A stretch of 32,081 nucleotides of DNA, taken from Bacilli bacterium (GTDB lineage: Bacteria > Bacillota_I > Bacilli_A > Izemoplasmatales > Hujiaoplasmataceae). Made by a program: the position numbers and the translations under genes. The stretch spans positions 1 to 32,081 of the forward strand of contig JAGYOE010000011.1 of the NCBI GenBank assembly GCA_018399755.1. The letters run 5' to 3'. This document shows positions 29,090-32,081 of this stretch, piece after piece. Under the pieces are notes generated by a model. It was given only the letters and a program-made list of their open reading frames with translations. It did not search any database and was not told the DNA's origin. Numbering within the stretch: the stretch's first letter is position 1; each line of letters begins with the position of its first letter.

Positions 29090-30490
29090 TTAGAATCTAA
29101 ATCCACCTTTTTTCTTCATTTTACTTCTTCTATCTTTTCTAGATGTTTTTGGTTGAAAATTGCCCTGAGCCATATTTTGTAAAGAACTTGGATTCATGCC
29201 TTGCATTCTTCGCATCATAGTTTGTTGTTTTTCAAGCATTTGCACTAGTTTATTAACTTCACTATATGATCTTCCAGAACCATTAGCTACGCGATTTCTT
29301 CTTGAAGAAGAACGGTTAATCAATTCTGGTTTTTTTCTTTCATCAAAAGTCATAGAATTTACAATAGCTTCAATATATTCTAGTTGTTTATCATCAACTT
29401 TATCCATGTTTCCAAGATTTTTCATTCCTGGTAACATTTTTAAAATCCCTGAAAACTTACCCATTCTTTTAATCATTTTCATTTGTTTCAGTAAATCGTT
29501 GTAATTAAACTTACCTGTCATCATTTTTTCCATCATTGACATAGCTTCATCTTCATCAATTTCTTCTTGAGCTTTTTCTACAAGTGATAAAATATCACCC
29601 ATACCAAGTATTCTTGAAGCCATTCGTTCAGGATGAAAGACTTCAATATCTTCGAGTTTTTCACCCATACCAGCAAATTTTATTGGTACACCAGTAATTT
29701 TTCTAATTGATAGAGCAGCTCCGCCTCTAGTATCTCCATCTAGTTTAGTAAGAATACAACCAGTAATTGTTAAGGCTTTATTAAAAGTATCAGCAACATT
29801 TACAGCATCTTGACCAGTCATCGCATCTACTGTTAATAATACTTCATCAGGTTTAGAAATCTTTTCTAATTGCTTAATTTCATTCATCATCTTGTCATCG
29901 ATATGAAGTCTCCCTGCAGTATCGACTATAACAAGATCAAAATCATTTTCTTTAGCATAAGCTAATCCATCTTTAACAATTTTTTCGGGATTGATTTGTC
30001 CTTCTTCAAACACTTCAATATTTAATTGTTCACCAACAGTTTGTAATTGTTCTATTGCCGCTGGTCGATAAATATCAGCAGCGATTAAAAGTGGTTTTTT
30101 GCTATATTTTTTTCGAACAAAATTAGCTAATTTTCCTACTGTAGTGGTTTTACCTGCTCCTTGTAAACCAACCATTAAAATAGTTGTTAAACCATCTTTA
30201 TTAAGGTTTAGTTCACTAGCTTCTTCACCCATTAAATTAGTTAATTCATCATTTACTATTTTAACAACTTGTTCGCCTGGTTTTAAACCTTTTAATATTT
30301 TTTCACCATAAGCAATTTGCCTTACTTCTTCGGTAAATTCTTTAACCACTTTATAGTTAACATCAGCTTCTAATAAGGAAAGTCTCACTTCTCTCATCAT
30401 TTCATCAATATCTTTTTGAGTTAACTTAGCTTTACCAGTAAGTCTTCTTAACGCCATTTGAAAGCGACTTGTTAAATCTTCAAAAGCCAT
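29090..30490 (-). CDS. ffh: Signal recognition particle protein Ffh
   Basis: SRP54 GTPase that binds signal sequences and the 4.5S/scRNA. N domain at residues 1-90. The G domain has GLQGAGKT (108-115), DTAGR (190-194) and TKLDGDTRGGAAL. The C-terminal M domain is Met-rich (MSMMEKMMTGKFN, MKMIKRMGKFSGILKMLPG) and binds RNA around RRNRVANGSGRS. A basic tail ends in KKKGGFRF. 466 residues. It follows ylxM by four bases, in the usual ftsY-ylxM-ffh order. Confidence 0.97.
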   Translation of the reverse strand: MAFEDLTSRFQMALRRLTGKAKLTQKDIDEMMREVRLSLLEADVNYKVVKEFTEEVRQIAYGEKILKGLKPGEQVVKIVNDELTNLMGEEASELNLNKDGLTTILMVGLQGAGKTTTVGKLANFVRKKYSKKPLLIAADIYRPAAIEQLQTVGEQLNIEVFEEGQINPEKIVKDGLAYAKENDFDLVIVDTAGRLHIDDKMMNEIKQLEKISKPDEVLLTVDAMTGQDAVNVADTFNKALTITGCILTKLDGDTRGGAALSIRKITGVPIKFAGMGEKLEDIEVFHPERMASRILGMGDILSLVEKAQEEIDEDEAMSMMEKMMTGKFNYNDLLKQMKMIKRMGKFSGILKMLPGMKNLGNMDKVDDKQLEYIEAIVNSMTFDERKKPELINRSSSRRNRVANGSGRSYSEVNKLVQMLEKQQTMMRRMQGMNPSSLQNMAQGNFQPKTSRKDRRSKMKKKGGFRF

Positions 30491-30494
30491 AAAT

Positions 30495-30821
30495 TCACAC
30501 CTTCTTTATTTTTTCTATATATTCTTTAATATCTTTTTTTGAATTAATTTTGGTTTTTAATTCGTCTAAAAGTTTATTTCTTAAATTTGTCTTTTCTAAT
30601 AAATTTAGTTTTTCTTCATAGTCTTCTAGATAAGTTGAAACTTTTTTAATTTGTAAATGTACTGCATTTCTACTAACATTAAATATTTCAGCTATTTCAC
30701 CTAAAGAATAATCTTCTCTAAAATAATACTCAAAATATAAACGTTGTTTTTTGGTTAATAATTTACTATATATATCATAAAGATTATTTAATCTTACTGT
30801 ATCATCAATATTATAACTCAT
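30495..30821 (-). CDS. ylxM: YlxM family (UPF0122) helix-turn-helix protein of the SRP pathway
   Basis: 108 residues with a sigma-factor-region-4-like helix-turn-helix: LTKKQRLYFEYYFREDYSLGEIAEIF and NVSRNAVHLQIKKV, then a charged helical tail. YlxM is known to influence SRP GTPase activity in streptococci. It lies between ftsY (eight bases) and ffh (four bases), as in most Firmicutes, which makes the assignment safe. Confidence 0.94.
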   Translation of the reverse strand: MSYNIDDTVRLNNLYDIYSKLLTKKQRLYFEYYFREDYSLGEIAEIFNVSRNAVHLQIKKVSTYLEDYEEKLNLLEKTNLRNKLLDELKTKINSKKDIKEYIEKIKKV

Positions 30822-30829
30822 ATCAACAC

Positions 30830-31801
30830 CTACTCAAAAAAGTCAGAGAAAAGTCCATAAATATAATCTTCAATATCAAAGTATTCTAGATCACTTAACT
30901 TCTCTCCCATTCCTACAAAACTAATTGGAATATTAAGTTTATTTCTAATCGCAAGCACTATTCCACCTTTAGCAGTCCCATCAAGCTTGGTAAGAATTAC
31001 TCCGCTAATATCAGCTACTTCAGAAAATATTTTTGCCTGAGATAATCCGTTTTGTCCCGTAGTAGCATCAATAACTAAATAAGTCTCATATACATTATTA
31101 TTTGTTTCTCGTTTTATAATTCGGTTGATTTTGCCCAGTTCATTCATTAAGTTTTTCTTGTTTTGTAATCTACCAGCAGTATCAATTAACAATACATCAA
31201 TTTTGTCTTTTTTTGCCTTTTGAATAGCATCAAAAATTACACTTGCTGGATCTGAACCAGCCTTTTTAGCAATAACTTCACAACCAACTCTTTCTCCAAA
31301 AGATTTTAATTGATTGATTGCTCCAGCTCTAAATGTATCTCCGGCAGCCATCATAACTGATTTTCCTTCATTTTTTAGTTTAAATGCAAGTTTTCCAATT
31401 GTAGTAGTTTTTCCTGTGCCATTTACTCCTACAAATAAAATAATAGTTAAATCATCTTTATTAAAGCGAATATTAGTATTAATAACTTCATCTTTTAAAT
31501 AAAGTTCAAACATTTTATCCACAATAACATTTTCTAAATCTATCGGTTTAGAAATTTTTTCTTTATCAACAACTTCTTTTAGTTCTTGAATAAACTCAAT
31601 AACAGTATCTACACCAACATCTGCCATTATAAATATTTCTTCTAATTTATCATATAACTCTTCATCTATTTTTTTTGAATTCCTTAAAACATCTTTTAAA
31701 GAAGACAATGTTTGTTTTCTGGTTTTCATCATCCCAATTTTATATTTTTCTGCTTGTTTGCGTTTATCTTTATTAGAAAACAACTTTTTAAATAAGCCCA
31801 T
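30830..31801 (-). CDS. ftsY: Signal recognition particle receptor FtsY
   Basis: GTPase receptor that docks SRP-ribosome complexes to the membrane. It starts MGLFKKLFSNK, a short amphipathic membrane-targeting helix, with no acidic A domain. The N domain follows, then the G domain with GVNGTGKT (125-132), DTAGRLQNKKNLMNEL and TKLDGTAKGG. GAGGTG six bases before the ATG at 31801 supports this start over an upstream TTG at 31822. 323 residues. First gene of the ftsY-ylxM-ffh operon. Confidence 0.96.
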   Translation of the reverse strand: MGLFKKLFSNKDKRKQAEKYKIGMMKTRKQTLSSLKDVLRNSKKIDEELYDKLEEIFIMADVGVDTVIEFIQELKEVVDKEKISKPIDLENVIVDKMFELYLKDEVINTNIRFNKDDLTIILFVGVNGTGKTTTIGKLAFKLKNEGKSVMMAAGDTFRAGAINQLKSFGERVGCEVIAKKAGSDPASVIFDAIQKAKKDKIDVLLIDTAGRLQNKKNLMNELGKINRIIKRETNNNVYETYLVIDATTGQNGLSQAKIFSEVADISGVILTKLDGTAKGGIVLAIRNKLNIPISFVGMGEKLSDLEYFDIEDYIYGLFSDFFE

Positions 31802-31837: not shown

Positions 31838-31846
31838 AGTATATCA
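31838..31846 (-). promoter_or_regulatory. Extended -10 promoter of ftsY-ylxM-ffh
   Basis: Minus strand TGATATACT: -10 hexamer TATACT at 31838-31843 with the TG of an extended -10 at 31845-31846. The -35 region (TTTTAT at 17 bases) is poor, as common with extended -10 promoters. The ftsY start lies 36 bases downstream of the -10, and a terminator stands just upstream. Confidence 0.6.
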
Positions 31847-31875
31847 TAAATACCTAATTGATAAAAACGTTTTAA

Positions 31876-31910
31876 AAAAAATCCGTCATATATAAAATAG
31901 ACGGATTTTT
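31876..31910. terminator. Terminator upstream of ftsY
   Basis: ATCCGTC (31881-31887) pairs with GACGGAT (31900-31906), and flanking A and T runs extend the stem to about 11 pairs around a 12-base loop. On the minus strand it leads into eight T. It ends the transcript of the gene at the right edge and of the hairpin region beside it. Confidence 0.88.
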
Positions 31911-31919
31911 AGGAAGGGT

Positions 31920-31963
31920 AAGTGCTTTCGCACTTTAAGGGAAATTAAACTACTTACGTAGTT
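31920..31963 (-). ncRNA. Two tandem GNRA-capped hairpins (candidate structured RNA or 3' UTR element)
   Basis: In the minus-strand transcript, AACTAC-GTAA-GTAGTT (31948-31963) is followed 12 bases later by AAGTGC-GAAA-GCACTT (31920-31935), then ACCCTTCC and the terminator at 31876-31910. Both stems are six perfect pairs and both loops are GNRA tetraloops on this strand only; on the plus strand the loops would be TTAC and TTTC. No reading frame covers it. It may be an RNA of its own or a structured 3' end of the upstream mRNA. Confidence 0.45.
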
Positions 31964-32000
31964 AAATAAATATTATCATAAAAATTTGATGCTTTTGTGA

Positions 32001-32081
32001 TTAATCACAGTCTTTTCCGTCTAAGCAAAACACATCTCCTGATTCATTTTTAACCACAACATTATCGCAGTCTTCGCATTT
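32001..32081 (-). CDS. C-terminal end of a Cys-rich, zinc-ribbon-like protein (partial)
   Basis: Only the last 26 codons are in the window: KCEDCDNVVVKNESGDV then FCLDGKDCD and a TAA stop. Four Cys in a CxxC...C...C pattern suggest a zinc-binding ribbon or knuckle. The full gene extends past the right edge, so size and family are unknown. It stands upstream of the hairpins and terminator and separate from ftsY. Confidence 0.6.
   Translation of the reverse strand, partial: KCEDCDNVVVKNESGDVFCLDGKDCD

Follow-up and report, generated by a model that had tools for sequence, protein, structure and literature searches.

A predicted small RNA gene with conserved C-rich strands between topA and ftsY in bacteria related to mycoplasmas, and its copies in recombinase elements

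In this study, we analysed a stretch of 32,081 nucleotides (hereafter the window; contig JAGYOE010000011.1) from a Bacilli bacterium of the Izemoplasmatales and identified, with near certainty as far as sequence can tell, a small RNA gene that has a promoter and a terminator of its own. Its family, absent from Rfam, is new although its kind is known, and it has an unusual mobile branch. It is most likely a trans-acting, Hfq-independent riboregulator. Our main reading, to which we assign a probability of about 0.6, is that the family is an independent small RNA gene outside Rfam whose C-rich strands would act, without Hfq, as seeds on the ribosome-binding sites of several mRNAs.

Layout of the small RNA gene

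Read along the minus strand, the parts follow each other as the topA end, a -10 box, hairpin 1, UUUCCC, hairpin 2, ACCCUUCC, a terminator, a second -10 box and ftsY. The predicted transcript (31874-31964, minus strand, ~90 nt) was delimited by the -10 box for its start and by the U run for its end, and a promoter box and an intrinsic terminator are thus both present at the sequence level. The extended -10 box TGATAATAT (31970-31978, minus) has the pattern TGnTAnnnT, and the -35 element in the genus of the window is poor (2 of 6 letters). Comparison of upstream sequences by eye gave a further motif, TCACAAAAGCATCA (31987-32000, minus); similar motifs lie upstream of several copies of the same form in relatives, nearer to the -10 box in the genus of the window, and possibly mark a candidate regulator site or a substitute for the -35 element.

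The predicted 5' end is formed by hairpin 1 (AACUAC-GUAA-GUAGUU, 31948-31963), followed by the first C-rich strand (the UUAAUUUCCCUUA region, 31936-31947), hairpin 2 (AAGUGC-GAAA-GCACUU, 31920-31935), the second C-rich strand (ACCCUUCCU, 31911-31919), which is the most conserved part, and the intrinsic terminator (AAAUCCGUC...GACGGAUUU with its U run, 31874-31909), all on the minus strand. Both C-rich strands are predicted to be unpaired, with an unpaired probability of 1.0 for the CCC of the first and the CCCTTCC of the second. An earlier note on this DNA had pointed out the two perfect 6-bp, GNRA-capped stems, 12 bases apart on the minus strand, and the CCC runs beside them, all of which are present. 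It had also regarded the hairpins as two related units, and here we disagree: they are not two copies of one unit. As to their setting, the Cys-rich gene end that it noticed is the zinc-ribbon end of topA, whereas the supposed ftsY terminator terminates the small RNA, upstream of ftsY.

The topA 3' end (32001-32081, minus; stop at 32001-32003) is cut by the window edge, and its identity was read by eye from the 27 codons inside the window; topA occupies the same place in all 15 relatives with the same form of the element. Downstream, ftsY (30830-31801, minus) has a -10 box of its own, TATACT (31838-31843, minus), and by eye a similar box also exists in relatives without the small RNA. The minus-strand gene order at 29090-31801 is ftsY, a YlxM-like gene and ffh (names by eye).

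The hairpin pair is beyond chance. Three GNRA-capped 6-bp stems occur in the window compared with a mean of 1.34 in 100 first-order Markov simulations, and none of the 100 simulated windows had two such stems starting within 45 nt on the same strand. The third perfect stem lies far away (1512-1527, minus, TTTGAT GAAA ATCAAA), one or two per window being the chance expectation. The minus-strand fold of 31860-32030, a segment that takes in the terminator, reached -35.6 kcal/mol against -21.7 +/- 3.7 for shuffled sequences (z -3.8; 1 of 200 as good). In all 16 copies of the window form, the promoter pattern TGnTAnnnT precedes the first C-rich strand by 10-45 nt, while 300 shuffles gave a mean of 0.9 and a maximum of 4 out of 16. 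It is less regular elsewhere (35/42 rows of the sister form described below and 6/16 rows of more distant families, a few of these rows being spurious second matches).

A hidden peptide was considered and rejected: the first ATG frames encode 4 to 27 residues, several of them cut by the stretch, and the window-form copies share no ATG frame.

Conserved structure of the window form

From 262 FtsY-encoding stretches we kept 80 loci, and directly upstream of ftsY 30 of them carried CCCTTCC preceded by TCCC, together with a T run. Two forms of the element can be told apart. The first, here called the window form, AATTTCCC...CTTACCCTTCCT, was present in 15 other loci, in each of them between topA (upstream) and ftsY (downstream) on the same strand. 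CACTTACCCTTCCT is invariant in the 15 window-form sequences, which were chosen by the CCCTTCC inside it. An alignment of both forms by MAFFT, with identical copies counted once, misplaced hairpin 2, and the two forms were therefore modelled apart.

A covariance model, R1, was seeded with 8 of the 15 window-form sequences, the other 7 being left out as misaligned by MAFFT. It matched the window copy at 31877-31971 (98.1 bits, E 5e-14 in its own genome), which is the single match in that genome (80% complete). A strong copy was found in 16 of the 34 family genomes, namely every genome of three genera (g1, 5/5; g6, 6/6; g10, 5/5). The other 18, all of other genera, gave no clear R1 match; the weak one in G019 (E 0.29) is unlike the small RNA.

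In the alignment of the 16 R1 matches, which was fitted to the model, 97.6% of cells were paired and 10 of 24 pairs had changed on both sides, either value being reached in 0 of 500 shuffles. When the 8 seeds were aligned by MAFFT, without fitting to the model, 97.4% of cells were paired (0/500 shuffles) and two-sided changes occurred in 5 of 24 pairs (4/500 shuffles). Two-sided changes affected 4 of 7 pairs in hairpin 1, 1 of 6 in hairpin 2 (4 being invariable) and 5 of 11 in the terminator. Hairpin 2 is little varied in both forms, the changes falling mostly in hairpin 1 and the terminator. These alignments indicate a conserved secondary structure with compensatory changes, the lack of which in homologs had been named beforehand as counting against the hairpins. 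The other such sign, hairpins lost while the terminator stays, is not the pattern either, as the whole element is absent from the seven loci read (L011, L013, L015-L019).

The suggestion that the segment functions as minus-strand RNA agrees with all sequence signs, whereas the GNRA loops are not its conserved core. Only 5 of the 16 window-form sequences, all from the genus of the window, have a GNRA tetraloop on hairpin 2, and on hairpin 1 it is confined to the window. Sequence comparison places the conservation in the C-rich strands between the hairpins rather than in these loops, and the hairpin sequences drift. The intuition about GNRA is partly true for the wider family, because a GNRA loop caps the terminator of the sister form in every one of the 20 aligned rows, as GAGA, GCGA, GAAA or GTGA.

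The sister form and its taxonomic range

The sister form, ACTTATCCCTTACATAGCATGG...ACATCCCCTTCCTTAA, is identical over its first 22 bases in 18/18 loci fetched through FtsY; these copies, which share ACTTATCCCTTACATAGCATGG, had been chosen only by CCCTTCC, TCCC and the T run. The FtsY proteins of sister-form loci are only ~60% identical to that of the window. A MAFFT alignment of 20 copies was 100% paired, with two-sided changes in 7 of 18 pairs (0/500 shuffles). Hairpin 1 is absent from the sister-form model, R2. In the sister-form loci among L020-L068, the first terminator hairpin is followed by a conserved CCC and by another, weaker hairpin, so that these RNAs may have a second terminator or a third C-rich strand.

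The 20-letter pattern CTTATCCCTTACATAGCATG (at most one mismatch) occurred in 48 of 120 genomes: 45/49 of one family (f3), 3/34 of f1, 0/7 of f2 and 0/30 of the other genomes of the class. Searched backwards, the pattern gave no match. Two or three copies were present in 14 genomes. The copies read out show the full small RNA layout; they, like the 53 loci compared for their setting and the 83 folded copies described below, were chosen by near matches to the same motifs. Among 395 genomes of the class, R2 had matches with E <= 0.1 in 59, including 30/30 of f3, and extended beyond the order to f10 (70 bits), f12 (69 and 26 bits), ten genomes of f18 (27-62 bits) and f7 (56 and 29 bits).

The genome of the window was not among the matches of the class-wide R2 run; run on 18 loci only, the model scored the window copy at 19.0 bits (E 0.008). 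It placed 14/14 window-form loci correctly (13-23 bits, E 0.0005-0.31), and up to E 1 these 18 loci held no further match beyond the four true sister-form ones. We link the two forms because they share their place, the order of their parts and a common CCCTTCCT, and because of this placement of 14/14 loci by R2. R1 in turn matched 10 of 11 sister loci at 18-34 bits; opposite-strand matches that arise by chance score up to 19-20 bits, and therefore only L023 (33.7 bits) stands out.

False R2 matches were also found: L202, L203 and L204, at 24.0-25.0 bits, were rejected as members. Since such matches reach ~25 bits, weak ones need support from their place, which exists for G098 (25.8 bits) and the window copy (19.0 bits); this assessment of place left out G155, G215, G335, G380, G406 and G561. 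A further R2 match (32.7 bits) in the genus of the window (G003; L198, 3000-3073) looks like a mobile-type copy of which the first half is missing and the tail and terminator are left. It is at most a broken copy, perhaps the remnant of a lost element.

Genomic settings and mobile copies

A position between an upstream topA and a downstream ftsY, all on one strand, was observed in 25 of 53 loci (two at one place; f3 23, f7 1, f12 1), which is no estimate of frequency since the loci were picked to include mobile copies. One R2 match, the copy of G034 (L329), had been missed by the motif scan behind the 53 loci. Considered together with f1, the topA-ftsY junction is likely the ancestral site.

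Such a constant neighbourhood could suggest a cis leader of ftsY acting by attenuation at the terminator, as ftsY lies directly downstream in all 15 window-form relatives and in 25 of the 53 other loci. We consider this very improbable, given that a separate -10 box for ftsY lies past the terminator and is also present in relatives lacking the small RNA, and that copies stand beside unrelated genes and in recombinase elements. In L011, L013 and L015-L019, read by eye, the element is missing and the -10 box before ftsY is kept; the element is therefore dispensable as a leader of ftsY. The downstream gene is also not of one class, as it would be for a riboswitch or cis leader: the loci read have ftsY, but also lipoprotein-like, recombinase and other settings. 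Hardly more credible, and if anything slightly less so, is a 3' untranslated region of topA with hairpins and a terminator and no further function; the element does start ~40 nt after topA and end in a terminator, but its own -10 box, the invariant unpaired motifs and the dispersed copies speak against it.

At a second site, represented by nine loci, the first C-rich strand begins 71-129 nt downstream of a large same-strand gene; in four of the nine (L315, L317, L325 and L326) a lipoprotein signal is readable at the visible N-terminus. The f18 copies have, in most loci read, neighbours resembling lipoprotein, SGNH-type hydrolase and sigma-factor genes (names by eye).

The third site follows a large serine recombinase, the first C-rich strand lying 57-75 nt after it in eight loci; L219 and L221 are identical over 6961 bases, which leaves seven distinct cases. 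Copies borne by recombinase elements include those on a 93-kb plasmid of Tenericutes bacterium MO-XQ and on four contigs from viral collections. A second recombinase gene lies directly before the first in 5 of the 7 cases (L134, L217, L218, L219/L221 and L220); L137 is cut, and L186 holds only the C-terminal part of the recombinase. Pfam confirmed recombinase domains in L137 and gave no match for the recombinase part of L186. Recombinase remnants were recognized ~356 nt from three more copies (L132, L133 and L324). These loci (L134, L137, L186 and L217-L221, with the remnants in L132, L133 and L324) outline an integrative element family found in Mycoplasmatota-like genomes and carrying large serine recombinases in tandem. 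A cysteine-rich, zinc-ribbon-like protein of 64-67 aa is encoded between a recombinase remnant and the small RNA in two loci (L121, 1242-1445; L114, 1242-1436); Pfam had no match for the L121 protein.

In this element family the small RNA follows the second recombinase, and some elements lie at tRNA or tmRNA 3' ends. The 3' end of a tRNA or tmRNA was located 0.2-0.4 kb beyond the small RNA in L132, L137 and L186, thus making the small RNA the last gene before the apparent attachment site. The DNA that L132 has in common with L133 and L134 ends at the tmRNA end. No tRNA or tmRNA was found near the copies of L134, L135, L122 and L162, and in L133 the distance to them is 5 kb. The idea that the small RNA controls the recombinases was rejected, the C-rich strands showing no strong pairing to the start region of either recombinase in five loci.

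One tentative explanation, which we think less probable than its opposite, is that a core chromosomal riboregulator was copied to these tandem-large-serine-recombinase elements with its C-rich seeds kept letter for letter and its hairpin 2, promoter and terminator changed. On entry into, or exit from, a tRNA or tmRNA gene, the host RNA network might then be rewired or defused, or the host copy might control the element.

Comparison with known RNA families

The earlier note did not recognize any described class of RNA, and indeed Rfam 15 gave no match over the gathering score at the small RNA. Across the window and 19 related loci, the only match at gathering scores was a tRNA beside one copy, and permissive E-values yielded apparent chance matches only. 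LhrC of Listeria comprises multi-copy small RNAs sharing CU-rich unpaired motifs; it is alike in having several copies per genome and such motifs, but differs in sequence, host and setting. Pyrimidine-rich conserved strands are also a feature of CsfG, which we take to be the ylbH leader (RF00516). However, RF00516 matched a sister copy at only 15.8 bits (cut-off 50) and on the opposite strand.

The closest likeness in outline is to RsaE/RoxS of Staphylococcus and Bacillus, described as a short RNA, conserved across genera, with several C-rich regions able to pair with Shine-Dalgarno sites (PMC4409812). The small RNA is likewise predicted to have several C-rich unpaired regions, two compared with the four given for RoxS in that text (PMC4409812). 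In contrast to RsaE/RoxS, it sits at the topA-ftsY junction and in recombinase elements, and its order apparently lacks Hfq. A further trait of RsaE/RoxS is its induction by NO through ResDE/SrrAB.

Descent as a far diverged RsaE/RoxS member seems unlikely to us. A sister copy aligned weakly over its full length to RF01820 (18.2 bits), sharing GUGAA...UUC...CAUCCCCUU, and the order of parts is similar; yet this score is far under the 79-bit cut-off, which RF01820 exceeded in none of 61 genomes and in 1 of 14 control genomes, and the eight RF01820 match loci whose stretches were read are not the small RNA gene. Among the control genomes, four gave matches, B. subtilis among them. The best RF01820 match (L124, 51-135; 35.5 bits, E 2e-4), at a contig start in G008 of the window's family, was rejected as a relative: it has none of the motifs of the small RNA family, and R1 finds nothing in G008. 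The small RNA is like RsaE in outline and is not filed as a member. No description of it was found in the openly accessible literature, although an earlier one is possible.

Possible mode of action and partners

When 83 distinct copies were folded, the C-rich motifs had mean unpaired probabilities of 0.93 and 0.91 compared with 0.42 elsewhere, with five motif values below 0.5; this folding lost three window-form copies, including that of the window, which was folded apart. Pairing with mRNAs is our best guess for what such strands do. The RNA would be transcribed from its own promoter and shielded at both ends by the 5' hairpin and the terminator. The C-rich strands (UUUCCC or UUAUCCC, and ACCCUUCC or AUCCCCUUCC) may then serve as seeds that pair with G-rich ribosome-binding sites, which would block translation or alter the stability of several mRNAs, as described for RsaE/RoxS. 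Seed pairing fits because invariant open C-rich strands sit on replaceable hairpins. The mobile copies keep identical C-rich strands, as if for the same partners.

This action would proceed without Hfq, possibly helped by KH proteins of the KhpA type. Hfq was detected in none of 41 genomes of the order by a search that was positive in 5 of 14 control genomes, and KhpA/B-type KH proteins were present in 21/21 genomes. A target scan of G001 (strain zrk2, which carries both forms; 1.60 of 1.65 Mb; 1378 ORFs from a crude gene-calling script) gave no convincing mRNA, with a weak excess of pairing for the window form and none for the sister form. For the mean pairing energy with start regions, 4/30 and 1/30 shuffles were as good as the two window-form strands, and 14/30 and 11/30 as good as those of the sister form; backwards strands came near the first window-form strand and were better than the first sister-form strand.

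A protein partner is the main rival to mRNA pairing: the C-rich strands could be the site of an RNA-binding protein that the small RNA titrates or docks, with the mobile copies as decoys. The nearly invariant single strands, the outcome of the target scan and the KhpA/B-type proteins in 21/21 genomes are in its favour, but we know of no protein that binds this C-rich motif, and the bases flanking CCC are not the same in the two forms, in keeping with changing partners. We regard it as rather doubtful. The 20-nt invariance exceeds what pairing with many varied targets would require, and could reflect a protein or one fixed RNA partner.

Significance

Many bacteria related to mycoplasmas share these nearly unchanged, unpaired C-rich stretches, the 20-letter pattern being present in 45 of 49 genomes of one family and reaching several others. 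Judging from a 2015 report on S. aureus and B. subtilis (PMC4409812), widely conserved small RNAs are few, and we found none described for these orders in the openly accessible literature. The small RNA offers a clean test of small RNA action where Hfq seems absent, and its copies in recombinase elements would provide one of the rare examples of mobile DNA with a host-type small RNA as a standing part.
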